Assembly (NCBI GenBank): GCA_001464275.1
Contig: LNFL01000139.1
Coordinates: 1-64,000, forward strand
Source: Actinobacteria bacterium Ga0077560
GTDB lineage: Bacteria; Actinomycetota; Thermoleophilia; Miltoncostaeales; Miltoncostaeaceae
Direction of reading: 5' to 3'
Length of the DNA stretch: 64,000 nucleotides
Under the pieces are notes generated by a model. It searched no databases and was not told the origin of the DNA. It saw nothing but the letters and a program-made list of their open reading frames with translations. Both the position numbers and the translations under genes were made by a program. Shown here piece after piece: positions 6,551 through 40,315 of this stretch. The first letter of the stretch is position 1. Each line of letters opens with the position of its first letter.

Positions 6551-6576
6551 GTACCCGCCGCCGGGAGGGTCCAACC
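6551..6576 (-). promoter_or_regulatory. Stress sigma-type promoter for the nucleotidyltransferase operon
   Basis: On the minus strand GGTTG, 15 nt, GGGTAC. It is back to back with the promoter at 6590. Confidence 0.6.
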
Positions 6577-6589
6577 ACCCGCCGCCCAT

Positions 6590-6614
6590 GGTTGGGCCCG
6601 GCGAGGGGGGGAAC
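6590..6614 (+). promoter_or_regulatory. Stress sigma-type promoter for the 6652 gene
   Basis: GGTTG, 14 nt, GGGAAC, about 38 nt before the ATG at 6652. Confidence 0.6.
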
Positions 6615-6651
6615 GGAAGCGACGACGTCAGCACCGCACCCAGGAGGCGCC

Positions 6652-6987
6652 ATGAGCACCGCCAACGGCATCGACCCGCCCGACCCCGCCGAGGTTCCGT
6701 CCGAGGACCTCACCCCGGAGGAACTGCGGGACGAGGCGTTCCGCACCGTCGACGGCGCCGGGTCCGGCGAACCGCTTGATCCGGCGATGGCACCCGTGAT
6801 CGAGGCCGGCGGAGGCGTGGCCGAGGGGTTCGAGCAGAGCGAGGCCCTGCTGGTCGATCACGCCGAGAGCGGCGAGGGCGGCACCGAGCGCATCCTCCGG
6901 GACGCGTTCACCCCCGAGGCCGACGAGGAGCGGGCCATCCACGGGGAGGCCGATGAGGAGGCCTCCAGCGAGCGCGCCGACCGCTAG
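6652..6987 (+). CDS. Small acidic hydrophilic protein, unknown function
   Basis: ATG 6652 follows a strong AGGAGG; the 937-residue ORF in the track is a readthrough of antisense frames. The 111-residue product is very rich in Glu, Asp, Gly and Ala, has no cysteines and no hydrophobic core segment, and looks mostly disordered. Its stop overlaps the convergent Nudix gene by a few bases. The upstream stress-type promoter and its composition resemble other small stress-promoter genes in the window, so a protective or hydrophilin-like role is possible; function is not established. Confidence 0.75.
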
Positions 6988-7427
6988 CGCAGCTCAGCCA
7001 GCCGCAGCCCGGCGTCCACCAGCGACACGCGCTCCAGCGCGGGCACCTGCGCGAGCGGGACCCACCGGGCCTCGTCGGTGGACCCACCCACCTCGTGGCG
7101 CAGCTCACCGGCCACGATGCGGGCCTCGAACACCACCCGGACGGCCTTCAGCGGACGCGGGGCGCCCTCGGTGAGCCGCTTCGCGGCGTCGATGACGTGG
7201 GTGTCCACGCCCAGCAGGCGACGTGGCTCGACGGTGAAGCCGGTCTCCTCCAGGACCTCCCGCACGACCGCCTGCTCGGGCGTCTCGTGCAGCTCCGCGC
7301 CACCGCCGGGCAGCGTCCACGCGCCCGGCCGGCGTCCCTCGCCGTTCCAGAAGGCCAGCAGGACGTCGGTGCCCTCACGGATGACCGCATAGGCGGCCAG
7401 GCGCGTGTCGAACGGGGGTGCGGCCAT
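6984..7427 (-). CDS. Nudix hydrolase
   Basis: The 147-residue protein contains a perfect Nudix box, [23 protein letters not shown] (seen as G-x5-E-x7-REVxEExGF), at about residues 43-65. It hydrolyses a nucleoside diphosphate linked to another moiety, with Mg2+ on the glutamates. N-terminal [13 protein letters not shown] and the preceding GAWTLPGGG are typical of MutT-like housekeeping members; the substrate is unknown. It is the last gene of a long minus-strand series starting at 11855. Confidence 0.92.
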
Positions 7428-7457
7428 CCGGCCACGATACGGGACCGCCCGGCGCGG

Positions 7458-7817
7458 TCAGCGGCGCTTGGCGGCCTTGCGCAGGCGCTTCCTGGTGCGC
7501 TTCTCGGCGTCCAGCTGCTCGTCGAGCACCGCGATGGCCTCGCGGATCTTGCCGATGCGGTGCTCCACGGCCTCCATCTCGCTGGCGGCCCCCTCACGCG
7601 CCCGTCGCACCGCCTCCTGCTCGGAGGCCGCGATCTGCGCCGAGGCCGAGCCCTCACCGACGATCCGGATCTCACCGTGCTCCACGAACGCGGCGCGGTC
7701 GAGCTCGAGCGCCTCGTCGCCCACGGCCACGTAGATCGTGGACGGGGTCACCGAGGTGACGGTGACGGGCCGGGGCTCGTCACCGACGAGCCAGAAACGT
7801 TCGGGAACCGCGGGCAT
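7458..7817 (-). CDS. Small protein with C-terminal coiled coil, unknown function
   Basis: A 119-residue protein. The N-terminal half (PERFWLVGDEPRPVTVTSV) looks like a small beta-domain; residues about 60-119 are Ala/Glu/Arg rich with heptad character and a strongly basic tail (RTRKRLRKAAKRR), so a coiled coil that may touch nucleic acid or membrane surfaces. No family is recognised. It lies 9 nt downstream of the GT2 gene in the same operon. Confidence 0.65.
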   Translation of the reverse strand: MPAVPERFWLVGDEPRPVTVTSVTPSTIYVAVGDEALELDRAAFVEHGEIRIVGEGSASAQIAASEQEAVRRAREGAASEMEAVEHRIGKIREAIAVLDEQLDAEKRTRKRLRKAAKRR

Positions 7818-7826
7818 GGGGACCTC

Positions 7827-8726
7827 CTACCCGTCCAGGCGGCGGCGCACACGCGGCCGCCGCCACCGCCACTGCCCCACCAGCCACCAGCCGGTGGCCA
7901 CCGGCGGGATGGCGACGCTGGTGGCCAGCATCGTCCCCACCTCGCGGCGGTCGGCCGGACCGGGGCCGATCCGGCGCGCCGCGAACCCCGCGGTGAGCGC
8001 CAGCCAGGCCGCCGCCGGGCCCGCCGCCAGGCGGGTGCGGCCCGCACCCAGCGCCGCGACCGCCAGCGCCCCGGCGGCGGTGGTGGCCAGGTGCCGGCGC
8101 AGGGCACCCGCCGGGGCGGCGGCGCGCGCCCGCCAGGCGCGGCCGTGACGGGCGAGCATGAGCACGTCGTCGGCGTTGCCGCGTTGCTTGGCGACGCTCA
8201 CCCACGGGCCCGCGGGTCCGACGGGGTGCAGCACCGCCCGCTCGCCCCGCACCAGCCGGAACCCGCGCGCCATGACGCGCAGCGCCAGGTCCGCGTCCTC
8301 GCGGTAGGCGCGCCGGAACCGCTCGTCGAACCCGCCCACCCAGTCCAGGACATCGCGGCGGTAGGCCATGTCGGCGGTCGCCCACGCGGCGTCCTCCAGC
8401 CCGCGGACGTTGCGCTCCCAGTCGGTGGGCAGGCGGTCCATCGGCACCGGCACCACGATTTGGCCCTGACACCCGGCGACGTCCTGCGGGAGCCCCTCCA
8501 GGTCACCGCGCAGCCGGTCCACCCAGCGCGGCTCGGGCACCACGTCGTCGTCCAGGAAGCACACCCAGTCCGCCGTCGAGGCGCGCCAGCCGATGTTGCG
8601 GGCCGCCGCCGGACCGATGCCGCGGCCGTCCACGGCGATGATCCGCCCGTCCAGGTCGCCCAGCGCCTCCCGCAGGCGGGCCAGGCCCTCCGGCCGGGTG
8701 GTGGGCACCACCACGTCCACCCTCAC
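7827..8726 (-). CDS. Family 2 glycosyltransferase (GT-A fold)
   Basis: GTG 8726 overlaps the stop of the carbamoyltransferase gene (GTGA), so I use it instead of the longer track start. Residues 1-200 are a GT2 catalytic domain: VDVVVPTTRPEG at the N-terminus, metal-binding FLDDDVVPEP, a DMAYRRDVLDWVGGFDERF acceptor region and a YREDADLALR segment for the base. After about residue 215 come one or two hydrophobic helices, so it is probably membrane-associated. It transfers a nucleotide-activated sugar to an unknown glycan, likely in the same pathway as the neighbouring GT9 and carbamoyltransferase. Confidence 0.85.
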   Translation of the reverse strand: MRVDVVVPTTRPEGLARLREALGDLDGRIIAVDGRGIGPAAARNIGWRASTADWVCFLDDDVVPEPRWVDRLRGDLEGLPQDVAGCQGQIVVPVPMDRLPTDWERNVRGLEDAAWATADMAYRRDVLDWVGGFDERFRRAYREDADLALRVMARGFRLVRGERAVLHPVGPAGPWVSVAKQRGNADDVLMLARHGRAWRARAAAPAGALRRHLATTAAGALAVAALGAGRTRLAAGPAAAWLALTAGFAARRIGPGPADRREVGTMLATSVAIPPVATGWWLVGQWRWRRPRVRRRLDG

Positions 8727-10345
8727 GGCCGGCGCACCGTGAACGGGCCGATCGCCAGCAGGTCGATCGGCGATGACCCGAAGCACTCCAGGGCGTCGCG
8801 GGGGCTGTCCACCATGGGACGGCCGGCGGTGTTGAAGCTGGTGTTCACCAGCACCGGCAGGCCGGTCCGCGCCTCGAACGCCGTGAGCACCCGCGCCATG
8901 AGCGGCAGCTCGAGCGGGTCGACGGTCTGGGCACGGGCCGTGCCATCGACGTGCACCACCGCGGGGATGCGGGACGCCCAGGCGGGGCGGACGCGATGCA
9001 CGAACAGCATGTACGGGCTGGGCAGCGGCCCGCCCGAGAACACCTCCGCGGCCCGGGAGGCCAGCACCATCGGCGCCACCGGGCGGAACTGCTCGCGGCC
9101 CTTGATGTCGTTCAGCCGCGCGGTGGTGCCGGCCGACGCGGGGCTCGCCAACAGGCTGCGCTGACCGAGCGCGCGCGGCCCGAACTCGCTGCGCCCCTGG
9201 AACCAGCCCACCACGCCGTCCTCGGCGAGCGTCTGCGCCACCGCCTCGGCGAGGTCGGCCGGGCGCTCGTACGGGATCCGGGCACGCCGCAGCTCATCCT
9301 CGATCTCCGCCTCGCTGAAGCCCCGGCCCAGCGCGGCGGTCCGCATGGGCCGCACCAGCTCCCGCTGCGCGGCCACGTGGAGCGCGGCGCCCAGGGCGGT
9401 GCCCGAGTCGCCCGCGGCGGGCTGCACCCAGATGCGCCGGAACGGCCCGCGTTCGATCAGCGCGGTGTTGGCCACGCAGTTCAGCGCCACCCCACCCGCC
9501 ATCGACAGCGACGACAAGCCGGTGGCACGGTGCAGCCAGTCGGCCAGATCCCCCACGGTCTCCTGCAGCACGCGCTGGACGCTCGCCGCCAGATCGGCGT
9601 GCACGCCGTCGAGCCGTCCACCGCGAGCGCGCGGGGCGAGGGTCTCCCAGTCCACCGGGTACGTCCGGAACCCGCCGTCGCCGTCCACGTGGACGTGCTC
9701 GCGCAGGATCTCGGTCATCACCGGCGACCCGTAGGACGCCAGCGCCATCACCTTGTACTCGTCGGAGGAACGCCGGAACCCCAGGTGCTCGGTGACCTCC
9801 TCGTAGAGCAGGCCCAGCGAATGCGGCAGCGCCTGGGTGGCCAGCACCTCCATGCGCCCTCCACGGGCCGCGCCGGCCAGGTACGAGGTGCGCTCGCCGC
9901 GCCCGTCCAGCACCATCACCGCCGAATCCCCGTACGGCGCGGCCAGGTGCGCCGACGCCGCATGGGCCACGTGGTGGGGCACGTACCGCAGCACGTCGTC
10001 CCGCAGCCCCGGCAGCACGCTGGACATGAAGCGCCCGGCCCGCTGCGCGTAGAGCGTGCGCAGCGCCTCCCACCCGTCGATGGTGATGTCACCGTCCGCG
10101 GGCGCCGCCAGCGACGGGTCGTACGAGTACGCCACCACGTCCAGATCCCGCGCCTCGATCCCCGCCTGCGACAGGCACCAGCGCGCCGACGCCTCGGGGA
10201 GCTCCCAGGTGGAGAACGGCACGGCGGGCTTGCCGTGCTTGCGCCGGCTGAACCGCTCCTCCTCGGCCGCCGCCACCACCACGCCGTCCACCACCAGCGC
10301 CGCCGCCGGGTCGTGGAACACCGCATTGACCCCCAGCACGTTCAT
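8723..10345 (-). CDS. NodU/CmcH-type O-carbamoyltransferase
   Basis: Start ATG 10345 (MNVLGVNAVFHDPAA) overlaps the GT9 stop as ATGA. The 540-residue protein has the family's two parts: an N-terminal Kae1-like ATPase domain with HHVAHAASAH and ALNCVAN motifs, and a C-terminal YrdC-like/NodU domain ending in SSPIDLLAIGPFTV. EFGPRALGQRS and VNTSFN are well conserved. Such enzymes move a carbamoyl group from carbamoyl phosphate to a sugar hydroxyl through carbamoyl-adenylate. Here the likely acceptor is a sugar of the glycan built by adjacent GT9 and GT2 enzymes; heptose is a reasonable but unproven guess. Confidence 0.92.
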   Translation of the reverse strand: MNVLGVNAVFHDPAAALVVDGVVVAAAEEERFSRRKHGKPAVPFSTWELPEASARWCLSQAGIEARDLDVVAYSYDPSLAAPADGDITIDGWEALRTLYAQRAGRFMSSVLPGLRDDVLRYVPHHVAHAASAHLAAPYGDSAVMVLDGRGERTSYLAGAARGGRMEVLATQALPHSLGLLYEEVTEHLGFRRSSDEYKVMALASYGSPVMTEILREHVHVDGDGGFRTYPVDWETLAPRARGGRLDGVHADLAASVQRVLQETVGDLADWLHRATGLSSLSMAGGVALNCVANTALIERGPFRRIWVQPAAGDSGTALGAALHVAAQRELVRPMRTAALGRGFSEAEIEDELRRARIPYERPADLAEAVAQTLAEDGVVGWFQGRSEFGPRALGQRSLLASPASAGTTARLNDIKGREQFRPVAPMVLASRAAEVFSGGPLPSPYMLFVHRVRPAWASRIPAVVHVDGTARAQTVDPLELPLMARVLTAFEARTGLPVLVNTSFNTAGRPMVDSPRDALECFGSSPIDLLAIGPFTVRRP

Positions 10346-11295
10346 CCGCGCACCTCCTCCAGCACACCGGGGACGACGTCCAGCTCCGCGAGCTCCCGCA
10401 CCACCCGCGGCACATCGATGCCGAGCAGCCCGGCGTCGGGGATCGCACCGTGCGGATCGCCCCGGCGGCCGGCCCAGACGACCCGGTGCCGCGGCCGCGA
10501 CGGCGGCCCCCACTCCGACGGGGGGACCGGGCCGAACAGGGTGAGGGAGGGGGTGCCGGTGGCCGCCGCCAGATGGGCGACGCCCGTGTCGCCGCTCACC
10601 ACCACGCGCGCCCCTGCCACGATCCGCGCGAGGTCGAGCACCCCCGTGCTCCCCGCCAGCACGGCAGCGTTGCCCGCCCCCGAGAGATCCGAAACCCGGT
10701 GGACCAGCTCGCGCTCATGCACACCGCCGGTCAGCACCACGCGGTGCCCGGCCCGCGCCAGCACACGCACCACCTCGGCGAACCGCTCCGGCGGCCACCT
10801 GCGCGCCGGCGACGCCGCGCCCGGGTGCACGACCACGGCCCCCGCGTACCGGGGGTCGGCATCCACCTCCAGGTCGATCCGCGCCGGATCGGCGGGGACC
10901 CCGTGCCAGGCCAGCATGCGGCACCACCGGTGCACCTCGTGCTCGCCGGGACGCCACGCCGGCCCCGGAACCAGCCCGGGGACGCCGAAGGCCAGCAGCC
11001 GGCCGGGCAGCGCGTCCAGCAGCAGGCGATGGCTGCGAGGGCCGCGACCGTGCAGGTTCACCGCCACGTCGGGCGGGGCCATCCCCACCGGAAGCGGCTG
11101 CAGCGGTCCCGCGGGCAGCACGGCGTCGACCGCCCCGCTCGCCACCGCGAGGGGAGCGAGCCGGGCGGGCCCGGCCAGCACCAGCCGGTGCTCCGGGAAG
11201 GCGTCCCGGAGCGCGCGGAGGGCGGGGAACCCGCACAGCAGGTCCCCCAGCCCCAGCGCACGGAGGGCCAGCAGCACCGGCCTCCGCTCCTCCAC
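10342..11295 (-). CDS. Family 9 glycosyltransferase (ADP-heptosyltransferase-like)
   Basis: The 317-residue GT-B protein starts at GTG 11295. It shows GT9 features: N-terminal ALRALGLGDLLCGFPALRAL for the acceptor side, HPGAASPARRWPPERFAEV and GDTGVAHLAAATGTPSLTLFGP for nucleotide-sugar binding. Family members mostly use ADP-heptose in LPS core synthesis. In an actinobacterium without LPS the acceptor must be different. Genes for ADP-heptose synthesis occur elsewhere in this window, so an ADP-heptose donor is plausible. Confidence 0.87.
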   Translation of the reverse strand: MEERRPVLLALRALGLGDLLCGFPALRALRDAFPEHRLVLAGPARLAPLAVASGAVDAVLPAGPLQPLPVGMAPPDVAVNLHGRGPRSHRLLLDALPGRLLAFGVPGLVPGPAWRPGEHEVHRWCRMLAWHGVPADPARIDLEVDADPRYAGAVVVHPGAASPARRWPPERFAEVVRVLARAGHRVVLTGGVHERELVHRVSDLSGAGNAAVLAGSTGVLDLARIVAGARVVVSGDTGVAHLAAATGTPSLTLFGPVPPSEWGPPSRPRHRVVWAGRRGDPHGAIPDAGLLGIDVPRVVRELAELDVVPGVLEEVRG

Positions 11296-11297: not shown

Positions 11298-11855
11298 TCA
11301 GCGCTCCAGGCGCCGCACGCGCGGTGCGTCGTTGCCGGCCTCGGCGTCGGCGGCCATCCGGCGGTCCATGTCCGCCACGGCCTCCGCCTCGGCGATCCGC
11401 GGGGTCGGCGCGGGGACGGTCTGCCGGTCGCGCACGGCCCGGCGGGTGTCCTCCCAGTAGCCGGCGCGGCGATAGTGCTCGTAGATCGCGTGCTCGCGCT
11501 CCGGCGTGAGCTCGTGGTCGTCGTCCAGCACCGGCGCCGCGGCGAGATGCTCCCGGCTGTACGGCACCATGATGTACGGGTCGCCCTCGTCGTCGACGTA
11601 GCGCACCTCGTCAACCGGAATCGCCCCCTTCGAGCGGCCCATCATCCCGGTGCCCACCACCAGATACCGCACGTAGCGGGCCTCCGCGTCGAGCAGGACG
11701 TCGCTGACCTTCCCGATCCGGTCACCCGCCTCGTCGCACACGTCCATGCCCTTGATGCGGCTCAGGGACGGCAACCGGGTGGTCTCCGGGTACTCCTCGG
11801 GCCCGATGCGGGCCTCGTCGTCGTCGGGCTCGTGGCGGTCGGTCACGTCACTCAT
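11298..11855 (-). CDS. PRC-barrel domain protein
   Basis: ATG 11855 follows GAGGGGAAG and replaces the slightly longer track start. Residues about 30-110 form a PRC-barrel domain (SRIKGMDVCDEAGDRIGKVSDVLL, then YLVVG and PVDEVRYV). Such domains bind RNA or protein surfaces and are common in actinobacterial stress proteins. A charged C-terminal tail of about 80 residues has no recognised domain. It is the first gene of the operon running to the Nudix gene and has a stress-type promoter upstream. Confidence 0.85.
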   Translation of the reverse strand: MSDVTDRHEPDDDEARIGPEEYPETTRLPSLSRIKGMDVCDEAGDRIGKVSDVLLDAEARYVRYLVVGTGMMGRSKGAIPVDEVRYVDDEGDPYIMVPYSREHLAAAPVLDDDHELTPEREHAIYEHYRRAGYWEDTRRAVRDRQTVPAPTPRIAEAEAVADMDRRMAADAEAGNDAPRVRRLER

Positions 11856-11871: not shown

Positions 11872-14800
11872 GTGGTCGGTCACGTGCGGGACCGGGTTCC
11901 CCGTCGGGCGCGGCGCAATCCCCGCTCGGTTCCCCCGGGCCCCTCGCCGCGGCGGTTTCGAGCGGCTACGCTCATCCGGCGCTGTACGTCCCCCGAGGCG
12001 AGGACGCCCCACCTGCGACGCTCGTCGCTCCTGTTCTGCGCGATCGCGGCGGCGTACGCGATCGGCTCCCAGCTCTCCGCATCGTGGTTCGGTGCGGACG
12101 GGCAGACCGCGTCGTTCTTCCCCGCCGCCGGCGTCACGCTCGCCGCGCTCATCCTGCTTCCCCGCGCACGGTGGCCGGTGGTGATCGCCGCGGCGTTCTT
12201 CGCCGAGGTCACCGTGGATCTCATCAACGGGATCGCCCTGGTGCCGTCGCTCGGCTACGGGGTGGCCAACACGGTGCAGCCGCTGGTGGCGGCGGCGCTG
12301 CTGGCGCGCCTGCGCCCGGCGCTGGACATCGGGCGCACCCGCGACCTGGCGGCCTTCCTGGTGGCGGGCGTCGGCCTGGGGCCGCTGGTGGGCGGCATCC
12401 TCGGCGCGTCGACGTTCGTCGTCCTGGACGGCGGCGACCGCTTCGCGCGCTTCGCGGGAGAGTGGTGGATCGGCGACGGGCTGGGCGTGCTCGTGGTGGG
12501 CGGAGCCATCCTCGGATTCCGCTCGGCCGCCGCCGGCACCGTCACCCGCAGGCGCCTGGCCGAGACCGCCGGGCTGGTCCTGGTGGCGGGCCTCGCGACC
12601 GCCGGCGTGTTCTGGCTCGGCGTCATCGGGCTGGCCTACGTGACGCTCATGGCGCTCCTGGCCAGCGGCTTCCGCGGCGGGACCCGCGGGGCGGCCCTCG
12701 CCGGGGCGGCGGTGGCCTTCATCTCCGCGCAGGCGGTGGCCTCGGGCCACGGCTACCTGGACGTCCTGGGCGTCTCCCCCGCCGACGGCCTGCTGTACGT
12801 CCAGCTGGCGATCGCCGTGTTCCTGGCGACCGCGCTGGCCGTGGCCGCCGAGGTGGCCGAGCGGGAGCGCAGCGCAGGCGAACGGCGCGCTGCGGAGCGG
12901 TTCCGCGTGATGGCGGACCACGCGCCGGCCATGCTGTGGGTCACCGACCGCAACGGCCGCTGCACGTACCTCAGCCGCGGCTGGTCCGACTTCACCGGGC
13001 AGCGGGAGGACCGGGGCCTGGGCGACGGGTGGCTGGAGGTGGTGGACCCGCGGGACGCCGAGCGCGTGCGCATGACCCACGAATGGGCGACCGACAGCCG
13101 TGAGCCGTTCACCCTGGACTACCGCCTGCGCCGGGCGGACGGCGAGTACCGCCGTGTGATCGACGCGGGGCGGCCGCTCCACGGCCCGGACGGGGACTGG
13201 GCGGGGTTCATCGGCTCGGTCATTGACGTGCACGAGCGCTCGGAGGCCGAGGACGCCCTGCGCACCAGCGACGCGCGCTTCAAGGCCCTGTTCGAGTCGA
13301 TCGACGAGGGCTACTGCCTGGCCGAGATCATCCTGGACGGCGACGGGACGCCCGTCGACTACCGCTTCCTGGAAGCCAACCACCTGTTCGGCGCGATGAC
13401 CGGCCTGCACGACGCCGTGGGCCGCCGGGTGCGCGATCTGGTCCCCGACCTGGAGGACCACTGGGTGCAGACCTACGCGCGCGTGGCCCTCGACGGCCAG
13501 ACCATGCGCTTCGAGAACGGGTCCGATGCCATGGGCCGCTGGTTCGACGTGTTCGCGACCCCGGTGGAGCCGCACGGGCGCTTCGCGCTGGTGTTCAAGG
13601 ACGTCACGCAGCGGCGGCTCGCCGAGATCGGCCTGCGCGAGAGCGAGCTGGAGCAGCGCCGCGCGCGGCGGCGGGCGGAGCTGCTGACCGAGGTGATCGG
13701 CGAGCTGGAGGCCGTGGACGGCGTGGCCGGCCGGGCCGGCCGCCTGGCGGAGCTGCTGGTTCCCCGGGTCGCGGACGCGGCCACCATCACCCTGGCGGGA
13801 CCGGACCCCGAGGTGCTGGCGCGGGCGCCCGGCCCCGCATCCGCGCCCGAACCGCACTCGCGGGCCCTGGCCGCCCTGGAGACCGGGGACCGGCACGAGA
13901 CCCTGCTCGAGCTCGCGCTCACCGACCCGGAGCGGCGGCCGTACACCGACGCAGACCGCGCGTTCTTCGCCGACCTGGCCGCCCGGGCCGGCCTGCTCAT
14001 CGCCAGCGCCAGGGTGCACGAGGAGGAGCACCGGGTGGCCCTGGCGCTGCAGCGTGCCCTGCTGCCGACCGTCGTGCAGGTGGACCCGGCGGTGGACGTC
14101 GCCGCCCGCTACGCGCCGGCGGCCGGGACGCTGGAGGTGGGCGGCGACTGGTACGACACCTTCCGCCTGCCGGACGGGCGGCTTGGCCTGGCGGTGGGCG
14201 ACGTGGTGGGGCACGGCCTGGAGTCGGCGGCCACCATGGGGCGTATGCGGACCGCGCTGGCCGCGCTCGCGCCGCACTCGGACGGGCCCGGGGACCTGCT
14301 GTCCCGCCTGCAGCAGTTCACCGACGGTCCCAGCGGCACCGGGTTCGCCACGGCCTGCTATGCGGTGCTGGACCCCGCGACCGGCGTCCTGCAGCACGCG
14401 TCGGCGGGGCACCCCCCGTGCCTGGTGGTCGCGCCGGACGGCGCGACCCGCTGGCTGGAGGACGGCCGGTCGGTGCCCCTGTGCCCGCTGGGCCGCCCCG
14501 GCCGCCCGCAGGCGACGACGGTGCTCGAATCCGGCGCGCTGCTGATCATGTTCACCGACGGCCTGGTGGAACGCCGGGGCGAGTCCCTGGCCATGGGGAT
14601 GGACCGGCTGGAGGCGGTGGCGCGGGAGCTGCGCGACGCGCCCGTCGAGGACGTCTGCGACGCCGTGCTCGCAGAGATGGTGGGCGGCCGCCACCGGGCC
14701 GACGACGTGGTGCTGGTGTGCATCCGGTTCGTTCCGGTGCCCGCCGCCGCATTCCGCCTGGACTTCCCCGCCGTGCCCGAGGAGCTGCGTCACGTGCGCA

Positions 14801-15132: not shown

Positions 15133-15461
15133 CCGATTCGCTTGCCAGCATCCGGGCCGCCCTCGACCGCGACGGGGACCTGACCCTGGCGATCACGGGC
15201 GAGATCGACGTCTCCAACGCGGAGGCGGTCCAGCGCGAGTGCGTGAAGCACATGGAAGACGCGCGCCGCACCACGCTGGATCTGGGCGACGTGCGCTACA
15301 TCGACAGCGCGGGCCTGCGCGTCGTGGTGGCGCTGTGGCAGCACGCGCACGCGGCCGGTGGGACGCTGCACGTGGCCGCCCCCGGGGACGGCTTCGTGGC
15401 AGAGCTGCTGGCGATCACCGGGCTGGGCGAGCAGCTGCTGGGTCCCGAACGCGCCGGCTGA
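15129..15461 (+). CDS. STAS-domain anti-sigma factor antagonist
   Basis: The 110-residue protein is a single STAS domain (DLTLAITGEIDVSNAE, LDLGDVRYIDSAGLRVVVAL). The serine in DSAGL is the conserved phosphorylation site of SpoIIAA/RsbV proteins. It would bind an RsbW-type anti-sigma kinase when unphosphorylated. ATGA overlap with the MASE1-PP2C-HATPase gene indicates that the phosphatase acts on it directly. Confidence 0.92.
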   Translation: MTDSLASIRAALDRDGDLTLAITGEIDVSNAEAVQRECVKHMEDARRTTLDLGDVRYIDSAGLRVVVALWQHAHAAGGTLHVAAPGDGFVAELLAITGLGEQLLGPERAG

Positions 15462-30687: not shown

Positions 30688-30701
30688 CGCTACCTCGTGA
30701 G

Positions 30702-31959: not shown

Positions 31960-32766
31960 TCAGATGCGGTCGTCGCGCTCGCGGCGACGGATCTCGTCGT
32001 CCTCGAGCGCCTCGCGGGTCTCCGGCGTGGGGCCGTCGGTGACGTCCCGGTGCAGCCCGGAACGGCCCAGGTCCTCGCCCTCGGTGGCCCGCAGCGCGCC
32101 GCGGGTCTCCGGCGTGGGCCCCTCGGTGACGTCGTGGACCTCGGCGTCGTGGCCGTACCGCCCCGGCAGGTCCGGGTCGGTGTCCAGGCGGCCCTGAGCC
32201 GGCATGGGGTCGGTGATCTGCTCCCCCTCGCCGGGGTGCCCGGCCACCAGCGGCGCGCTGCGCTCCGTCGTGCCGGTGGTGCCCTCCGTCATCCCGGTGG
32301 TGCCGGTGGTCGAACCGCCGTGCACCTCTCCCTCCCAGCCGCCGGTGGGCGCGCCGCGCGTCTCGATCATCTCGCGGAACCGCTCCAGGTCGTTCTTGGC
32401 GCGCCGACCGGCGAGCCCGAGCCAGTCGCCCACCTTCTCGACCGCGCCCTCGGGCTCGTGGTCGAGCTGGAGGTGGATCTTGGTGCGGTCCCCGGCCACC
32501 GGCTCGAAATGCACGACGCCGGCGTTGCGGTACCCGCCCGTCGCCCGCCATGCGATGAGGCGCTCCGGGACCTGCTCGGTGATCTCGGCGTCCCACTCCT
32601 TGGTGTCGCCGGCCACGTTCGCCCGCCAGTGCAGGTGGGTGTCGTCGAGCTGGCGCACCTCCTCCACGCCCTCCATGAAGCGCGGGAACTCCTCGAACTG
32701 GGTCCACTGGTCGTACGCGGTCCGCACAGGGACCGCGACCTCGATGGTCTCTTCGATCGTCGACAT
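31960..32766 (-). CDS. SRPBCC (polyketide cyclase/START-like) protein with repetitive acidic tail
   Basis: ATG 32766 gives 268 residues. The first 145 are an SRPBCC domain of the cyclase/dehydrase type (IEVAVPVRTAYDQWTQFEEFPRFMEG, HLHWRANVAGDTKEWDAEI, GVVHFEP). The rest is low-complexity: a Thr-Gly repeat (TTGTTGMTEGTTGTTE) and two similar units VTEGPTPETRGAL and VTDGPTPETREAL. SRPBCC proteins bind hydrophobic ligands in a deep pocket; the ligand is unknown. A stress-type promoter precedes it. Confidence 0.85.
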   Translation of the reverse strand: MSTIEETIEVAVPVRTAYDQWTQFEEFPRFMEGVEEVRQLDDTHLHWRANVAGDTKEWDAEITEQVPERLIAWRATGGYRNAGVVHFEPVAGDRTKIHLQLDHEPEGAVEKVGDWLGLAGRRAKNDLERFREMIETRGAPTGGWEGEVHGGSTTGTTGMTEGTTGTTERSAPLVAGHPGEGEQITDPMPAQGRLDTDPDLPGRYGHDAEVHDVTEGPTPETRGALRATEGEDLGRSGLHRDVTDGPTPETREALEDDEIRRRERDDRI

Positions 32767-32801: not shown

Positions 32802-32826
32802 GTTCCCCGCGGCGGTGGCGGTAAAC
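32802..32826 (-). promoter_or_regulatory. Stress sigma-type promoter for the SRPBCC gene
   Basis: On the minus strand GTTTA, 14 nt, GGGAAC. The spacer and flank contain an inverted repeat (GGTGGCGGT/ACCGCCACC). Confidence 0.6.
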
Positions 32827-32855: not shown

Positions 32856-33434
32856 TCAGCCGGCCGCCGGGTACCCGGACCCGGCCAGCAGCCGGGCCAG
32901 ATGCGCGGCGTTCACCGCCGCGGTCCGGGTGGTGCCCGCGGTGGTCTCCGGCGTCTGCGGGAGGTCCCGGTAGTCGACGCGGCCCATGGCCTCACCGACC
33001 CAGTACGTCACCCCGGACGCCGGGGCCTGGTACAGCTCCGCGCTGGTGTGGTGCGCCCCGTCCTCGTTGCCCACGACCGCGACGATGGCCACGCGCCCGT
33101 AGGAGACCATGCGCCCGGCGTCGTCGGTCTCGGCCAGGAAGGCGTCCATCCGCTCGAGCACACGCTTGCAGACGCTCGACGGCTGCCCCATCCAGATCGG
33201 CGTGCCCAGGACGAGGATGTCCGCGTCCAGCACCGCTCGCCGCAGCTCCGGCCACTCGTCGCCGTCGCCCAGGTCGGACTCCACCCCAGGTGGCACGTGA
33301 TGGTCCGCGACGCGGCGCATCTGCCCCTCTACCCCCAGCCCGCGCAGCTCGTCCAGCACCTGCGTGAGCAGCAGCTCACAGCTCGAGGGCGCCGGCGACG
33401 CCTTCAGCGTGCAATTCAGCGCGAGGGCCCTCAT
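32856..33434 (-). CDS. NADPH-dependent FMN reductase/flavodoxin-fold protein (in-frame gap)
   Basis: A 192-residue flavodoxin-fold protein: MRALALNCTLKASPAPSS (FMN phosphate loop), LGTPIWMGQPSS, and AIVAVVGNEDGAHHTSAELYQAP. Family members read on from the YQ with about eight more residues (a LNDVGF-like segment) before the PA..TYWVGEA part; here those residues are absent without frameshift. That looks like a 24-nt deletion, so the flavin site may be affected in this copy. It may act as a quinone or metal reductase; physiological substrate unknown. Behind a stress-type promoter. Confidence 0.8.
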   Translation of the reverse strand: MRALALNCTLKASPAPSSCELLLTQVLDELRGLGVEGQMRRVADHHVPPGVESDLGDGDEWPELRRAVLDADILVLGTPIWMGQPSSVCKRVLERMDAFLAETDDAGRMVSYGRVAIVAVVGNEDGAHHTSAELYQAPASGVTYWVGEAMGRVDYRDLPQTPETTAGTTRTAAVNAAHLARLLAGSGYPAAG

Positions 33435-33494: not shown

Positions 33495-33520
33495 TTTCCC
33501 GGGGCGTCCCCCGCCGAAAC
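33495..33520 (-). promoter_or_regulatory. Stress sigma-type promoter for the flavodoxin-fold gene
   Basis: On the minus strand GTTTC, 15 nt, GGGAAA, about 60 nt before ATG 33434. Confidence 0.55.
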
Positions 33521-33568: not shown

Positions 33569-33594
33569 GTTTCCCGCGGCGGGTGGACGGGCAC
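33569..33594 (+). promoter_or_regulatory. Stress sigma-type promoter (variant -10) for the DUF378 operon
   Basis: GTTTC, 15 nt, GGGCAC; the T/A of the usual GGGWAC is replaced by C, so this is a weaker match. Confidence 0.4.
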
Positions 33595-33638
33595 ACGTCC
33601 GCATTCCGGTTGACCCCCAAACGAAGGCGAGACCTTCC

Positions 33639-33875: not shown

Positions 33876-34241
33876 ATGGCGACGCCATATCGTGACGAGC
33901 CGGCTCAGCCGAAGGTGGAGGAGACCCGCGAGGAGGTGCTCGAACGGGTCGAGGGCGAACAGGCGGACGCCCTGGCGCGCAGCGGCCAGGACCTCGACCG
34001 CGACCCCAGCACGCGCCGCGGGTTCACCTGGCTGCTGCTGGGGGTGCTGGCCGCGGGCGCGATCGTGGGGTACGTCGTCACCTTCGTGGTGGTGGGCGTG
34101 ATCCGCGGCTGGGAGCAGGGGTTCCACGCCGGGTTCGCCGGCGCACTGGTGCTCGCCGTGATCGCCGCGCTGCTGCTCGCCGAGGGCGAGGATGGACGCA
34201 TCGCCCGCTGGGTCGACGCGCGCACGGGCCCCGGCCGGTGA
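33876..34241 (+). CDS. Small membrane protein
   Basis: AAGGAGG precedes ATG 33876. The 121-residue protein has a charged helical N-terminus (EETREEVLERVEGEQADALARSGQDLDRD) and two transmembrane helices (FTWLLLGVLAAGAIVGYVVTFVVVGVI and AGFAGALVLAVIAALLLAEG). No named family is recognised. Its stop overlaps the GT9 gene start (GTGA). Part of the DUF378 operon. Confidence 0.7.
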   Translation: MATPYRDEPAQPKVEETREEVLERVEGEQADALARSGQDLDRDPSTRRGFTWLLLGVLAAGAIVGYVVTFVVVGVIRGWEQGFHAGFAGALVLAVIAALLLAEGEDGRIARWVDARTGPGR

Positions 34242-35500
34242 GTCCCGAGGTCCCCGGGGGGCGGGTTCCCCCCGGGGGTCACACCCTCGTCGCCCGCCTG
34301 GACAACGACGGCGACGTGCTGCTCGCCGGTCCGGCGATCCGCGCGGCGGCGGCGGGCAGCGAGCGGCTGACGCTGCTCTGCGGACCGCGGGGCCGGGCCG
34401 CCGCGGCGATGCTGCCGGGGGTCGACCGGATCGAGGTCTTCCGGGCGCACTGGATCGATCCCGAGCCGGACCCGGTGGACCCCGCGGTGATCGAGGACCT
34501 GCGTGACCGCGTGACGAGCCTGCGTCCCGACCGGGCGCTGATCCTCACCTCGTTCCATCAGAGCGCGCTGCCGCTGGCGCTGGTGCTGCGACTGGCAGGC
34601 GTGCCGTGGATCGGGGCGATCAGCGACGACTACCCCGGTTCCCTGCTGGACCTGCGGCACCGCGTCCCCGACGACCTGCACGAGGTCGAACGCGGGCGCT
34701 CGCTCGCCGCGGCCGCGGGGTTCGCGCCCCCTCCCGGCGATGGGGGCCGCATGGAGGTCCTGCGTGATCCACGGCGCCTGCCCGCCGGGCTGCCGGACCG
34801 CTTCGTGGTGCTCCACCCCGGTGCCTCGGTGTCGGCGCGGCGCTGGCCGGCGGAGCGGTTCGCCGCCCTGGCGGCGCGGCTGATCCGGTCCGGCGAGCAG
34901 GTGGTCGTGACCGGCGGGCCGGGAGAGCGGGCGCTCACGGCGCGGGTCGCCGCGGGTGGGGGCACCGACATGGGGGGACGCACCGGCCTGCCGGAGCTCG
35001 CCGAGATCCTCGCGCGCGCCGAGGCCCTGGTGTCGGGCAACACGGGACCGGCTCACCTCGCGGCCGCAGTTGGGTGCCCGGTGGTGTGGATCGCGGCCCC
35101 CACGGTCCCCTCCGTGCGCTGGCACCCGTGGGCGGTCACGCACCGGGAGATCTCACGGGACGTGCCGTGCGCCGGATGCCGTGCCCGTGAGTGCCCCGTC
35201 CCCGGGCATCCGTGCATGACCGGCATCGGCGTCGACGAGGTCCTCGACGCGATCGCGGCGATCCGGCACGGGGCGGGATTGCGGCCGGACGTGCCGGGTA
35301 GGCGGCATGCACCACAACCCAGGAGGGCCCCCATGGCCGATCAGGAGCAGGACCCCAAGACCGGTTCGCAGCAGCAGCAGGAGCAGGAGAAGTGGTCCGA
35401 GAACCCCCAGCAGGGCGGCCCCTCGCAGGGCGCGAAGGACTCGGACGAGGGCATCGGCCCCGACGACGCCGACGAGATCGTCAACGCGGGCGAGGGCTGA
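34238..35500 (+). CDS. Family 9 glycosyltransferase, fused in frame to a small disordered protein
   Basis: Residues 1-350 are a complete GT9 protein: LVARLDNDGDVLLAGPAIRAA, LHPGASVSARRWPAERFAAL, GNTGPAHLAAAVGCPVVWI and a Cys-rich PCAGCRARECPVPGHPC end region found in actinobacterial members. The usual stop after the AAIRHGAG segment is missing, and the reading frame continues through 35333, where a second gene with its own AGGAGG and ATG begins. The protein product may therefore end in a 55-residue Gln/Asp-rich extension, or a stop may have been lost in the sequence. Donor probably ADP-heptose by family; acceptor unknown. Confidence 0.82.
   Translation: MSPEVPGGRVPPGGHTLVARLDNDGDVLLAGPAIRAAAAGSERLTLLCGPRGRAAAAMLPGVDRIEVFRAHWIDPEPDPVDPAVIEDLRDRVTSLRPDRALILTSFHQSALPLALVLRLAGVPWIGAISDDYPGSLLDLRHRVPDDLHEVERGRSLAAAAGFAPPPGDGGRMEVLRDPRRLPAGLPDRFVVLHPGASVSARRWPAERFAALAARLIRSGEQVVVTGGPGERALTARVAAGGGTDMGGRTGLPELAEILARAEALVSGNTGPAHLAAAVGCPVVWIAAPTVPSVRWHPWAVTHREISRDVPCAGCRARECPVPGHPCMTGIGVDEVLDAIAAIRHGAGLRPDVPGRRHAPQPRRAPMADQEQDPKTGSQQQQEQEKWSENPQQGGPSQGAKDSDEGIGPDDADEIVNAGEG
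35277..35301 (+). promoter_or_regulatory. Stress sigma-type promoter for the 35333 gene
   Basis: GATTG, 14 nt, GGGTAG, inside the 3' part of the GT9 reading frame. Confidence 0.5.
35333..35500 (+). CDS. Small disordered Gln/Asp-rich protein
   Basis: AGGAGG stands 8 nt before ATG 35333, which is in frame with the GT9 gene upstream. The 55 residues contain a Gln/Glu block and GPSQGAKDSDEGIGPDDADE; there are no hydrophobic clusters, and composition is hydrophilin-like. With a stress-type promoter in front, I read it as an independent gene, possibly also read through from GT9. Confidence 0.65.
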   Translation: MADQEQDPKTGSQQQQEQEKWSENPQQGGPSQGAKDSDEGIGPDDADEIVNAGEG

Positions 35501-35609: not shown

Positions 35610-35978
35610 GTGATCACCCGGCCGGCCGTGCTCGACCTGTCCCCCGGTCCCCTCCAGGACGCGGTGCTGCGTCGCGTGACGGGCGCGGTGGCCCTTCAGT
35701 CGGGCCTGTCCCCGGAGGAGATGGACGCCCTGGCCCTCGTGGCGCAGGCCCTGGCGACGGGTGCCACCGCCGCCGGATGCGCCGGCCCCCTGCGGGTGGA
35801 GCTGCATCCCGGCAACGGCACGGTGGCGGTCCGGCTGGGACCGCTCGGCGCCGGGCAGGGCCGTGCCGTGATCGCCGCCGCCGGCGGCCGTCCGGACGCA
35901 CCGCTCACGCATGCCCGGGTGGAGCGCGCCGGCCCGGACGAGTACGTGCATCTGATGGCGGGGCGCCCCGCGGCCTGA
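35610..35978 (+). CDS. RsbW-like protein without clear ATP boxes
   Basis: The 122-residue protein resembles RsbW-type anti-sigma factors in overall pattern (VLRRVTGAVALQSGLSPEEMDALALVAQAL, then LRVELHPGNGTVAVRLG), but the N-box asparagine and the glycine-rich G1 and G2 boxes are not visible. It could be a non-catalytic binding partner. A TACCAT -10 box sits about 40 nt upstream, before ATG 35578; the latter opens only an 11-residue frame that overlaps GTG 35610. GTG 35589 is an alternative start. Confidence 0.6.
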   Translation: MITRPAVLDLSPGPLQDAVLRRVTGAVALQSGLSPEEMDALALVAQALATGATAAGCAGPLRVELHPGNGTVAVRLGPLGAGQGRAVIAAAGGRPDAPLTHARVERAGPDEYVHLMAGRPAA

Positions 35979-35980: not shown

Positions 35981-36880
35981 TCAGGCCGCGGGCTCGTGGG
36001 CGTCCATGAGGTCGTGGGCGGAGGCCTCGGAGGCCATCGTGCGCAGGTGCTCGTCGCCGCGGATCCGCCCGAGGGCGGCGCGCTCCAGCTGGCGGGCCCG
36101 TTCCCGGGTGACCCCCAGCCGCCGGCCGATCGCCTCGAAGGTGGCGCCCTCGTCGCCGTTCAGCCCGTAGCGCAACATCAGGACCAGCCGCTCGCGCTCC
36201 GGCAGCGCGCCGAGCGCGTCGCGCAGCGCGCGCCGGGTCATCTCCCGGTCCACGTCCTCCCACGCCTCGCGCTGGTCCTCGTCCGCGAGCACGCCGCCGA
36301 GGGACTCGTCGCCGTCGTCTCCCAGGCGCCGGTCGAGGCTCATCACCTCGCCCAGCGTCCGGGCGCGACGCAGGTCCGCCAGCCGCTCCTGCGGCACGCG
36401 CGCCCGCGCCGCCACGTCGGCGTCGCTGGGCGCGCCGCCCCCGGTCTGGAACGCCAGCTCGGTCTCGGCGCCGGTGACCCGGCGCACCTCGTCGTTGACG
36501 TGCACCGGCAGGCGGATCGTGCGGCTCTGGTTCGCCAGCGCACGCGCGATGGCCTGCCGGATCCACCACACCGCGTACGTCGAGAACTTGAGCCTGCGGC
36601 GATGGTCGAACCGCTCTGCCGCCCGCATCAGGCCCAGCGTGCCCTCCTGGACCATGTCCGACAGGGGGAGTCCCGCCCCCTGGTACCTGGTGGCGATCGA
36701 CAGCACGAGCCGCAGGTTGCTCTCCACCAGCAGGTCCTTGGCCCGCGTGTCGCCCGCCTCGATGCGGCGGGCCAGCGCGATCTCCTCCTCGATGAACTCC
36801 CGCAGCCCCTCGTCCTCCGCGGCCCGCCCGCGTCCCCGGCCGGTGGCCGGCGCCAGGCCGTTGCGTCGTCTGTCGCTCAT
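35981..36880 (-). CDS. Sigma-70 family RNA polymerase sigma factor (group 2-like)
   Basis: A 299-residue sigma factor with regions 1.2 to 4: [78 protein letters not shown] (region 2), a region 3 with [19 protein letters not shown], and region 4 [37 protein letters not shown]. The lack of a long N-terminal region 1.1 suggests a nonessential principal-like factor. ATGA overlap with the SGNH gene. Promoter specificity probably close to the housekeeping -10. Confidence 0.9.
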
Positions 36881-37698
36881 CCCGTCCCCCCCGGCCTCGC
36901 GGCCTCCAGATGCCCCGCAAGTTCGGGGGCGCACTCGAGCACGGCCGCCGCGATCGCCCGCTGCCCGTCGGCGGTGGGGTGCAGGTGGTCGCGCGCGCTC
37001 ACCCACCGATCGCCCTCGGGCGCGCTCGATCCGTGCCCGTGGAACACCCGCTCCAGGTCCACCAGGCGCACCCCGGGCAGCCCGGTGGCCGCGGCGCGGA
37101 TCGCGGTGTTCACCGGCTCGATGAAGCGGGCGCGGACGATCTCGCTGTCGTCCACCGGGTAGTAGGTGGTCACCAGCACCGGGCCGGCGACGCGTTCGCC
37201 AAGCCAGCCCAGCAGGCCGCGCAGCCGGGCGCCCAGGCGGGCGATCGCCGGCTCGCACCACGCGGGCGGCGGGGCGAGGCGGTCGAGCACCGGCTGGGGA
37301 TCCACCGGCAGCGGCGCCGCGGCGGCGCGCAGCAGCATGGCCGCGGGGACGTACGCCGACCACTGGGCCATCAGGTCGTTCGCGCCCAGGGTGACCGTGG
37401 CGACGTCCACGCGCCGCCGCATGGCGTCGCGCAGCCCCGGGGTGGGTCCCGACCGCCAGAACGTCGACGTCCGCGCGCCCGAGCAGGTGAGCGACACGTC
37501 CAGCTCCACCGGCCGGCCCGCGGCCCGCAGGCCGTCGGCGACCAGCGCCGGGTATCCGCGGTCGGGCCGGTCGAACCAGCGCAGCATGCGGGCGGCGGGC
37601 GTGGTGCAGGCGCCGGCCGGGATGTGTCGTGGGCGGCCCATCAGGAAGCCCCGGGGGATCGAGTCGCCGATGGCCGCGTAGCGGAGGGTGTCGTGCAT
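36877..37698 (-). CDS. SGNH-family hydrolase
   Basis: The 273-residue protein has the four SGNH blocks: GDSIPRGF (nucleophile Ser), a Gly-containing [21 protein letters not shown], and [10 protein letters not shown]. It would hydrolyse esters such as acyl or lipid/carbohydrate esters. No signal peptide is visible. ATG 37698 is used. It sits upstream of the sigma-70 gene in a two-gene operon with a stress-type promoter, an unusual pairing. Confidence 0.88.
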
Positions 37699-37709: not shown

Positions 37710-37734
37710 TTTCCCGGCCGGCCCGCGGTGAAAC
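37710..37734 (-). promoter_or_regulatory. Stress sigma-type promoter for the SGNH/sigma-70 operon
   Basis: On the minus strand GTTTC, 14 nt, GGGAAA, about 12 nt before ATG 37698. Confidence 0.6.
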
Positions 37735-37777
37735 ACGGGGGCGGGCGGCGGGCACCCGGGTGTGCCAGGGTCATGTG

Positions 37778-39920
37778 ATGACCCAGCACCCGCACATGCA
37801 CCGGCTCGCCCCGCCGGGAGGCATGCCCGAGATCCACTCCGGCCCGGGGACCGTGGTGGCCGTGTCGGGCCTGTCGTTTGCCATCAGCGACGAGCTGGGG
37901 GACATCTCCCACAGCACCGACGGGCTGCTGGTACGGGACACCCGCCACCTGTCGCGGCTGGAGCTGCGGTTCGACGGGGCGCCCATGCGATCACTGGGCG
38001 TGGGCCTGCTCTCGCCCGACGCGTGCGACTTCCGCGGCTACCTGCCGCCGGCCGCCGGGTCGGCGTCGCTGGACGCCCCGTGGGAGATCGAGCGGGACCG
38101 CACCATGCGTCCCGGCGGCCTGGAGGAGACCGTGACCGTCCACTCGCGCACGCCGGAGCCGGCGCGGGTGGCGGTCGAGCTCTCGGTGGCCGCCGACTTC
38201 GCCGACATCTTCGAGATCCGGCGGCTCCAGGACGACCGGGGCGACATCCCCGAGCGCCCGGTGGAGGTCGCCCCGGCCCGGGGTGAGATCCGGTTCACCG
38301 GCGCCGGCGGGCTCACCACCACCGTCGTGATGGACCCGCCGCCCGAGCGGATGAGCGGCGGCACCGCGTTCTGGACCGCCGGGGCCTCACGTGATCACCC
38401 GTGGGTGCTGCGCCTGCGCGTGAGCGCCGCCATGGAGGGGCTCACCGCCCCGCCCGACGGTCTCGGGTCCATCACGCCGCCGTCGGCCGCGCCGCCCGTG
38501 GTGGCCAGCAGCCCCGAGGACCTGGCGCGCGCCTGCCGCGCCTCGCTGGTGGACCTGGGCGCGCTCACGCTGCCGGACCCGCTGGACCCCGGCCGCCGCA
38601 TCATCACCGCCGGCATCCCGTGGTTCGTCGCCCTGTTCGGACGGGACAGCCTCATCGCCGCGCACGAGGCGCGGATCGCCGACCCGGGGCTGCTGGTGGA
38701 GACGCTTGCCGCCCTCGCCGCCCGGCAGGGCCGCGTGCTGGACGACAGCAACGACGAGGCCCCGGGCAAGATCCTCCACGAGGTCCGGCTGACGCCCCGG
38801 CCCTGGCTGGGCGAGGGCACCTCCGGGGGCGCCCGGCCGTACTTCGGGTCGATCGACTCGACGGCCCTGTTCCTGATCATGATGGGCGAGGCCCGGCGGT
38901 GGGGCGCGGACCGTGAGCGGCTGCGCCCGCTCCTGCCCGCCGCCGATGCCGCCATGGCCTGGCTGCGCGGGCCGCACGCCGACCCGGACGGCGACGGCCT
39001 GATCGAGTACGTGGCGACCGGTCCCAGGTCGCTCACCAACCAGGCGTGGAAGGACTCCGACAACTCGGTGCAGTTCGCGGACGGCACGCTGGCGCGGCCG
39101 CCCATCGCGATGTGCGAGGTCCAGGGATACGCGGTGCGGGCGCGCAAGCAGTACGCGGAGGTGCTGGCCTGGTTCGGGCGGGACGCCGAAGCCGCCGAGC
39201 TGGTGGCCGAGGCGGACGCGCTGCGCGACCTCGTGCGCCGGCGGTTCTGGATCCCCGCGACGCCCGGGCGCCGCGGGTACTTCGCGCTGGCGCTGGACGG
39301 CGACAAGCGCCCGGTGGACGGCGTGGCGTCCAACATGGGCCACCTGCTGTGGTGCGGCGTCCCGTCGAACGACGAGGCCGACGAGGTGGCGCACCATCTG
39401 GACGGGCCCGCCATGCGCAGCGGCTGGGGGCTGCGCACCCTGGCCTCCGACATGGGCGGCTTCAACCCCATCTCCTACCACGCCGGATCCGTGTGGCCAC
39501 GGCCTTCGCCGGTACGGCCATGACGCCGAGGCGATGCGGATGGCGGGCGGGCTCATCGACGCCTGCGCGGTGTTCGAGGACCGGCTGCCGGAGCTCTTCG
39601 GCGGGCACTCGCGCCGGGACACCGGCTTCCCCATCCCCTACCCCACCGCGTGCCGACCCCAGGCGTGGTCGGCGGGCGTCCCGCTCGCGCTGCTCGCCGT
39701 GCTGCTGGGGCTGGAGCCGGACGTCCCCGGCGGCGTCCTGTCGCTCGCGCCGGCGCTGCCGCCCGGGATGGAGCGGCTCGAGGTCCACGGCATCCGCTTT
39801 CCCGGCGGCGTGCTCTCGGTGGCCGTCACGCCGGCCGGCGCCCAGCTGCTGGCCCAGCCGCCGGGCCTGCGGATCGAGTTCCGGCCGGGTCCCGCCCGCA
39901 CGGAGGCGGGACCCGGCTGA
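37778..39920 (+). pseudogene. Glycogen debranching enzyme-like protein, frameshifted
   Basis: ATG 37778 begins a protein of the bacterial amylo-alpha-1,6-glucosidase/GDE family. The N-terminal domain has [20 protein letters not shown]; the (alpha/alpha)6 catalytic domain has GIPWFVALFGRDSLI, KILHEVR, NQAWKDSDNSV and GFNPISYHAGSVWP. At that point the frame breaks near 39500: GLRRYGHDAEAMRMAGGLIDA follows in another frame and ends at TGA 39920. The expected HDTAIAA segment is missing, giving a deletion of about 20 nt. Both halves are well conserved otherwise. It would act on glycogen or on trehalose-related oligosaccharides. Confidence 0.85.
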
Positions 39921-39923
39921 GGC

Positions 39924-40100
39924 TCAGTAGCCGGGCTGCGGCTCCGCCGGGGACGGGTCGGGTGGACCCGGTGCCGGATCGGGGGTCACCGGCGGATCGC
40001 CCCGGCCCGGATCGGCCGGCGCCGGGTGCGGCGTGGGCGGGCTCGGGATCTCCACGGGCCCCGTGGGGGGCGGCTGTGTCTGCAGGTCGGGTCCGGGCAT
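39924..40100 (-). CDS. Small proline-rich protein
   Basis: A 58-residue protein with GAGGAG before ATG 40100. It is one-third proline, with PGPDLQTQPPPTGPVEIPSPP and PDPAPGPPDPSPAEPQPGY, and no helix-forming core. It has a stress-type promoter. It is the third 58-residue low-complexity protein in the window under this promoter class; function unknown. Confidence 0.65.
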   Translation of the reverse strand: MPGPDLQTQPPPTGPVEIPSPPTPHPAPADPGRGDPPVTPDPAPGPPDPSPAEPQPGY

Positions 40101-40130
40101 GCGGGCGCTCCTCGCGTCGGGTCGCTGCGT

Positions 40131-40156
40131 GTTCCCGCTCCGTCCGTCCGGCAATC
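40131..40156 (-). promoter_or_regulatory. Stress sigma-type promoter for the proline-rich protein gene
   Basis: On the minus strand GATTG, 15 nt, GGGAAC. Confidence 0.5.
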
Positions 40157-40289
40157 CCGTCACCGGAGTCGCCCGGGACGGCAAGCGCGGGAAGCGCGGC
40201 ACCCCCGCGCGCCACGCCTCCCGCGTGTACCGGTGTTCCCCCGAGCCCGAACCCCAAACCTCACCGGGCGGGCGATGCCGTGAACGGTG

Positions 40290-40315
40290 GTTTCGGGTAC
40301 AGCCCCCGGGGGTAC
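40290..40315 (+). promoter_or_regulatory. Stress sigma-type promoter before a 26-residue ORF
   Basis: GTTTC (inside GGTTTC), 15 nt, GGGTAC, about 35 nt before ATG 40350. Confidence 0.55.

Follow-up and report, generated by a model that had tools for sequence, protein, structure and literature searches.

The stretch of DNA analysed here, referred to as the window, comprises 64,000 nucleotides of contig C139 (LNFL01000139.1, positions 1-64000), from a 3.8-Mb genome in 193 contigs that is 84% complete and has a GC content of 75%. Between 6.5 and 40.4 kb of this window, i.e., in ~34 kb or 0.9% of the genome, lies a dense cluster of predicted SigB/SigF-type promoters with a sigma factor gene among them, and we consider it highly probable that this region constitutes a self-contained regulon for the general stress response of the SigB/SigF type. 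Nearly all genes of the 34-kb stretch, including those of a glycan pathway, look wired to one stress signal. The region is called an island here, a term that suits the clustering of its promoters, and no indication of mobility was seen. Comparisons were made with genomes of the same genus (G001), the same family (G012) and another family of Thermoleophilia (G038), the window's own genome being G000.

Scanning both strands for the pattern G-N-TT-N14..16-GGG[AT]A gave 22 matches between 6.5 and 40.4 kb, a single match in the rest of the window (61351+, at the start of a coding sequence) and none in the 13.4 kb beyond it; the density is ~6.5 per 10 kb in the island vs 0.53 per 10 kb in 377 kb of other DNA from the same genome. 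The initial annotation had listed 18 strong sites and a weaker one. All 18 carry a G-N-TT (or GTTT) box followed after 14-16 nt by GGG[A/T]A, and the site at 33569+ is indeed weak (GGGCAC), but the list was incomplete, two sites on the reverse strand (20295-20319 and 40236-40260) having been missed. The sites had also been read as SigB/SigF promoters, and here the box form and spacing agree with measured promoters: those of the Streptomyces coelicolor SigB homologues have GTTT or GNNT at -35 and GGGTAC/GGGAAA at -10 (PMC8346170), and those of Mycobacterium smegmatis SigF take the forms GTTT-N14..19-GGGTA and GGWWT-N16..17-GGGTAY (PMC4694148, PMC7693655). The island sites likewise place a GTTT-like -35 box, 12-17 nt and a GGGWA -10 box ahead of genes, as SigB/SigF-type promoters do.

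A genome-wide scan with a matrix had been proposed as the check on this reading; pattern counts over the genome and a matrix comparison of leader genes both came out in its favour. The form GTTT-N13..16-GGGWA occurs 36 times genome-wide, 12 of these in the 34 kb of the island (binomial P 2.5e-16), against nine matches to the reversed pattern in the whole genome. Using a position matrix trained on sites of G001 only, 17/22 leader genes of the island and 16/241 other leaders reach the threshold of 12 bits (Fisher P ~1e-13), a comparison to be read with the caution that the matrix is partly dependent on the window, many sites being orthologous. In an unbiased search of all 3+4 dyads, GTT-N15..17-GGAA ranked first and GTT-N15..17-GGGA second of 65,536. 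We therefore see next to no chance that the sites are a composition artefact, i.e., chance matches in GC-rich intergenic DNA, given the reversed-pattern control, the comparison with 241 background leaders from this genome, the footprints and the dyad search, even though GGG runs are common at 75% GC and the excess of the looser GGTT form over the genome is only mild (56 vs 35 control matches). Because of this weak enrichment, it is the local cluster and not the pattern alone that carries the claim. The artefact is refuted at the level of the whole island; individual sites may be chance, and the matches 21353- and 21943- are probably chance or unclear.

The sites are also oriented with genes. 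A start codon on the same strand follows within 150 bp for 21/22 matches and for 11/22 when the matches are read reversed, a count that leans toward the claim as the gene list gained four small open reading frames (ORFs) and a shortened one once the sites were known. For 21/22 matches, 9-141 bp separate the -10 box from the start codon. At 6552-, 18846- and 37711-, as well as at counterparts in G001 and in a family of genomes labelled f31, this distance is 9-13 bp, and the transcripts would be leaderless or almost so. This orientation, the distances to starts with a fixed spacing of 14-16 nt, and a sigma factor of exactly this specificity encoded within the cluster make it very improbable that the boxes are near-palindromic repressor or activator sites (GTTTCC...GGGAAC) rather than promoters, a reading that draws on the -35 and -10 boxes being partly reverse complements of each other and on some nearly symmetric sites (37711; 42577/42580 in G001). 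The palindromic-site or hairpin reading was rejected, as mirror complementarity within the spacers is no higher than in shuffles (0.358 vs 0.355). Near-palindromic sites that match, or nearly match, on both strands between divergent genes were observed at 37711-37734, L082:2577-2603, L097:15545-15570 and L127:10107-10133, and these are possible overlapping bidirectional SigB-type promoters.

The sigma factor gene that the initial annotation had placed inside the island is confirmed at 30782-31471 (+). It encodes a SigB/SigF/SigG-family protein of 229 aa which clears the NCBIfam model TIGR02980 (246.7 bits over a cut-off of 234.35) and falls below the mycobacterial SigF model PRK07122 (219.6 vs 372) and the Bacillus SigB equivalog (174.8 vs 315). 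Its nearest solved relative is Staphylococcus aureus SigB (8x6g), of which it keeps the SQMHVSRL -35 helix and region 2.4, and when it is aligned with this protein and 11 relatives, its promoter-recognising segments are invariant or nearly so. A further sigma gene at 35981-36880 (-), in an operon with a GDSL gene, is of the RpoD/RpoS-like kind (group 2 type) by Pfam and NCBIfam and is called the second sigma below; the same arrangement is found in G001, where the sigma is 81% identical, and the conserved site 37711- ahead of both genes suggests a sigma cascade.

Several observations weigh against the regulon reading, in addition to the partial dependence of the matrix. Immediately upstream of the sensor gene at 12178 and of the topoisomerase IB (TopIB) gene there is no clear motif, and in G001 the motif is missing before the orthologues of the FMN reductase gene and of the ChaB operon. 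The own genome also encodes, on contig C56, a paralogous SigB-type sigma factor that is 70% identical, passes TIGR02980, has the same helices and presumably the same specificity, and its operon has a motif of its own upstream, as has the G001:C24 operon. It is thus conceivable, if rather unlikely, that the promoters are real and read by the C56 paralogue, or by both, with the island sigma having another or an overlapping role; among the SigB homologues of S. coelicolor, promoters are known to be cross-recognised (PMC8346170). Against this, the island sigma and its G001 counterpart are 95% identical, and in both species the gene sits within the promoter cluster and carries the motif at its own start. 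While the SigB/SigF interpretation of the promoters is supported, we infer their attribution to the sigma at 30782 rather than to its paralogue.

All parts of an Rsb module, i.e., STAS proteins with a phosphorylatable serine, a HATPase kinase and a PP2C phosphatase, are encoded in the island, and the switch components would presumably work together. An RsbW-like anti-sigma kinase (HATPase_c_2, 31513-31893, +; PF13581 1.1e-24) with readable N and G boxes adjoins the sigma gene. In the C56 and C24 operons a third gene follows the sigma-RsbW pair; here its counterpart is detached, as a small divergent protein at 35610-35978 (+) that is 38-47% identical to those third-gene products, has no Pfam match and is probably an anti-sigma-like partner. 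A sensor phosphatase/kinase with MASE1, PAS, PP2C (SpoIIE) and HATPase_c_2 domains (12178-15132, +), whose true start is probably slightly upstream, is followed by a STAS anti-anti-sigma protein with a DSAG phosphorylation motif (15129-15461, +). A second STAS anti-anti-sigma protein, with a DSTG motif (40435-40839, +), precedes a sensor phosphatase of dCache-like, GAF-GAF and PP2C (SpoIIE) architecture (40918-43611, +), and a degenerate STAS protein with a weak match to PF13466 lies at 19937-20260 (-).

In the mechanism that we propose, stress would be sensed by the two sensors fused to PP2C phosphatases (12178 and 40918), which would dephosphorylate the STAS proteins 15129 and 40435. Binding of these to RsbW-like kinases, namely 31513 and the kinase domain that forms part of 12178, would then free the sigma factor 30782 to read, with RNA polymerase, ~20 GNTT-N14..16-GGGWAC promoters in the island. 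Among them would be its own promoter (positive feedback), that of the second RpoD/RpoS-like sigma (cascade) and that of one antagonist/sensor operon. The outputs would be genes for envelope and DNA protection (ChaB, PRC, SRPBCC, the holin-X trio, dehydrogenases and perhaps topoisomerase IB) and the enzymes for an ADP-heptose, carbamoylated glycan; we infer both the stress signal and the nature of this glycan.

The individual predicted promoters are described from left to right. At the left edge, 6552-6576 (-) precedes a nucleotidyltransferase-like gene (5958-6542) and 5230-5961, and 6590-6613 (+) lies 38 bp before a 111-aa ORF at 6652 with a ribosome-binding site. The site 11897-11920 (-) would serve a PRC-barrel gene (11298-11855) with glycan genes behind it on the same strand (GT9, 10342-11295; carbamoyltransferase, 8723-10345; GT2, 7827-8714). 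Next, 17125-17149 (-; 21.3 bits) faces 16917-17093 and a Zn-alcohol dehydrogenase gene (15724-16920), 17164-17187 (+) faces 17222-17398 and a short-chain dehydrogenase/reductase (SDR) gene (17395-18267), 18846-18869 (-) stands 10 bp before the start codon of 18272-18835, and 18883-18906 (+) precedes the DUF1360 (18947-19477) and ChaB (19482-19883) genes. Inside the TopIB gene, 20295-20319 (-) lies 34 bp before the degenerate STAS gene. The heptose operon (22063-26839) follows 21996-22020 (+), the trio of 27740-28234, holin-X (27321-27743) and 26893-27357 follows 28301-28324 (-), 28516-28920 follows 28352-28376 (+), and a glycosyltransferase gene (28910-30070) follows 30099-30123 (-). The sigma gene 30782 itself is preceded by 30701-30725 (+), the SRPBCC-domain gene (31960-32766) by 32803-32826 (-) and the FMN reductase gene (32856-33434) by 33496-33520 (-), and the weak site 33569-33595 (+) stands before a DUF378 gene, 33876-34241 and the GT9 gene at 34238. 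Further right, 35277-35300 (+) is found 32 bp before a 55-aa ORF at 35333; the near-palindromic 37711-37734 (-) precedes the GDSL gene (36877-37698) and the second sigma gene, its other strand facing 37778-39523. Lastly, 40132-40156 (-) is followed after 31 bp by an ORF for a proline-rich protein of 58 aa (40100 down to 39924), with the further site 40236-40260 (-) upstream of the same ORF, and 40290-40314 (+) precedes the STAS gene 40435-40839 with the GAF-PP2C phosphatase gene behind it. Short proline-rich proteins behind SigB-type promoters were observed in two genera (40100-39924 and L129:6165-6398). Strong sites were also seen outside the island, before genes for an ABC transporter ATPase (L111:14818-16044), a BrkB-family protein (L115:15195-16148) and a PAP2 phosphatase (L100:14657-15397), and the regulon probably extends beyond the island.

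Much of this arrangement recurs in G001, whose orthologous contig has no match in its first 40 kb and ~14 between 41.9 and 63 kb. The boxes are kept and the spacers have drifted before the PRC gene, 18272, the GDSL/second sigma pair, STAS 40435 and the sigma gene, the last site being almost wholly conserved. The nucleotidyltransferase and SRPBCC orthologues also have motifs upstream, at distances that are similar or shifted, and the counterpart of 20295- lies 34 bp before the orthologous STAS gene (L082:14811+); before the FMN reductase orthologue none was found. The island core genes are syntenic at 54-95% identity (both PP2C sensors 65-68%, ChaB 86%, topoisomerase 76%) and the cargo differs. 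This difference in cargo, together with a tRNA-Gly (3418-3492) near the left edge, might point to a mobile genomic island carrying its own sigma, a reading which we regard as very unlikely in view of the core synteny, a GC content equal to that of the flanks, the absence of integrases and transposases among the annotated genes and of a tRNA at the G001 edge of the island. Smaller motif clusters were found around a SigB-type sigma gene in G019:C216, where the holin-X trio likewise lies behind a motif, and around sigF-like loci in family f31.

The island also holds a set of glycan genes (a carbamoyltransferase, GT2, HAD, two GT9, two GT4, GmhA-like, HldE-like and SDR) scattered over 27 kb of the window. 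These are pieces, about four in number, of one conserved ADP-heptose/carbamoyl glycan cluster. The main piece (22063-26839, +) encodes two GT4 enzymes, a GmhA-like isomerase, an HldE-like ADP-heptose synthase and an SDR protein; the second (7827-11295, -) the GT2, carbamoyltransferase and GT9; the third (30118-30645, -) the HAD phosphatase, which is fused to GT2 in G012 and G038; and the fourth (34238-35500, +) the other GT9, its ORF being ~75 aa longer than its relatives. The overrun of this ORF covers the promoter 35277+ and the 55-aa ORF; a frameshift or lost stop is possible. All pieces except the HAD gene lie behind a SigB-type promoter, one of them weak. The GmhA-like protein falls below the NCBIfam equivalog cut-offs (164 vs 276 and 146.8 vs 209), as does the HldE-like protein (250 vs 521; domain II 173.5 vs 181.5). 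The sugar genes are absent from the orthologous G001 contig, and a search of the whole G001 genome gave no close relative of the heptose synthase; nor was the heptose gene present in plasmid records.

In G012 and G038 the glycan genes form one cluster, with a motif ~60 or 16 bp before the carbamoyltransferase gene and a SigB-type sigma nearby, and among 20 further actinobacterial genomes examined, most have the gene order as well. A SigB-type sigma lies within ~10 kb in 5/7 close Thermoleophilia clusters (G000, G012, G038, G519 and G542; not G513 and G495). A prediction written for four unseen Thermoleophilia clusters had a mixed outcome, with a SigB-type sigma within 15 kb in two (G519, G542) and the motif directly before the first gene in one (G542). 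The stretch G519:C1:3975001-4011000 was seen to hold, in ~30 kb, three SigB-type sigmas, a homologue of the second sigma (49%), two RsbW-like and three STAS proteins, topoisomerase IB and the heptose cluster. In family f31 the glycan cluster lies by topoisomerase IB, a SigB/SigF-type sigma is encoded in the same stretch in 3/4 genomes (the two tested both pass the SigF model, 440 over 372 bits), and all four have GTTT-N15..16-GGGTA at 11-39 bp upstream of the first GT4 gene. This family is probably Mycobacteriaceae, because the sigF side of one of its genomes carries an acyl-CoA carboxylase gene, as does the M. smegmatis sigF neighbourhood (MSMEG_1807; PMC4694148). A phylum-wide SigB-type promoter before the heptose cluster was rejected (5/35 leaders vs 10/170 neighbours with at least 13 bits, P 0.09), and recurrence is therefore claimed in particular lineages, not as a rule. 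We tentatively put forward, with the chances slightly against it, that the ADP-heptose/carbamoyl glycan is a SigB/SigF stress output in deep Actinomycetota (Thermoleophilia and a Mycobacterium-like family), the operon having been shattered here and its pieces kept under the sigma. If so, stress would induce the synthesis of a heptose-containing glycan in these bacteria.

A literature search gave no account of SigB/SigF regulons in Thermoleophilia, most of whose genomes used here come from uncultured organisms, and nothing direct on clustered stress regulons and actinobacterial heptose clusters. The locus offers a ready-made regulon of promoters, sigma, switch and outputs, and provides the uncharacterised ADP-heptose glycan cluster with a testable function and regulator. 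As a separate observation, 46287-46571 matches weakly, below the cut-off, the Frankia_peptide (RiPP precursor-like) family and adjoins an AlkZ-like DNA glycosylase gene.

In Bacillus subtilis, SigB is controlled by RsbU/RsbV/RsbW partner switching, in a system to which RsbR/S/T also belong. The island resembles it in sigma family, STAS protein, HATPase kinase, PP2C phosphatase and GTTT...GGGWA promoters, but its PP2C phosphatases are fused to MASE1/PAS or Cache/GAF sensors, one of them also to a kinase domain, and no RsbR/S/T were seen in it. The glycan genes recall the ADP-heptose pathway of Gram-negative lipopolysaccharide, with a GmhA-like isomerase, a bifunctional HldE-like kinase/adenylyltransferase and GT9 heptosyltransferase-like enzymes; they differ from it in their scores below equivalog cut-offs, the carbamoyltransferase alongside and the actinobacterial host. 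The SigB homologues of S. coelicolor are alike in -35 and -10 forms, similar spacing and several paralogous sigmas, in a study that describes promoters of individual genes or operons (PMC8346170).

The closest likeness is to M. smegmatis, where the block MSMEG_1766-1804 around sigF has lowered expression in a sigF mutant, which shows its SigF dependence by experiment (PMC4694148). There, many adjoining genes near the sigma depend on it, with GTTT-N15..16-GGGTA/GGGAA promoters, many of them 8-69 bp before starts, and the block shares a type I topoisomerase, ChaB, dehydrogenases and RsbW with the island (PMC4694148 Table 1), which likewise has its sigma gene inside a set of genes preceded by promoters of the matching type, together with TopIB and ChaB. 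UsfY and cytochrome P450, present in that block, were not seen in the island, and dependence was shown there by sigF deletion, whereas the island is read from sequence. The island suggests that the clustering around sigF in M. smegmatis goes back to an old actinobacterial arrangement. A stress regulon packed around its own sigma gene is thus already known, and the island is unusual in its completeness. It also differs in having a sigma below the SigF cut-off, and what further sets it apart from M. smegmatis is the class, the two PP2C sensors and the second sigma inside the island, and the heptose glycan genes.

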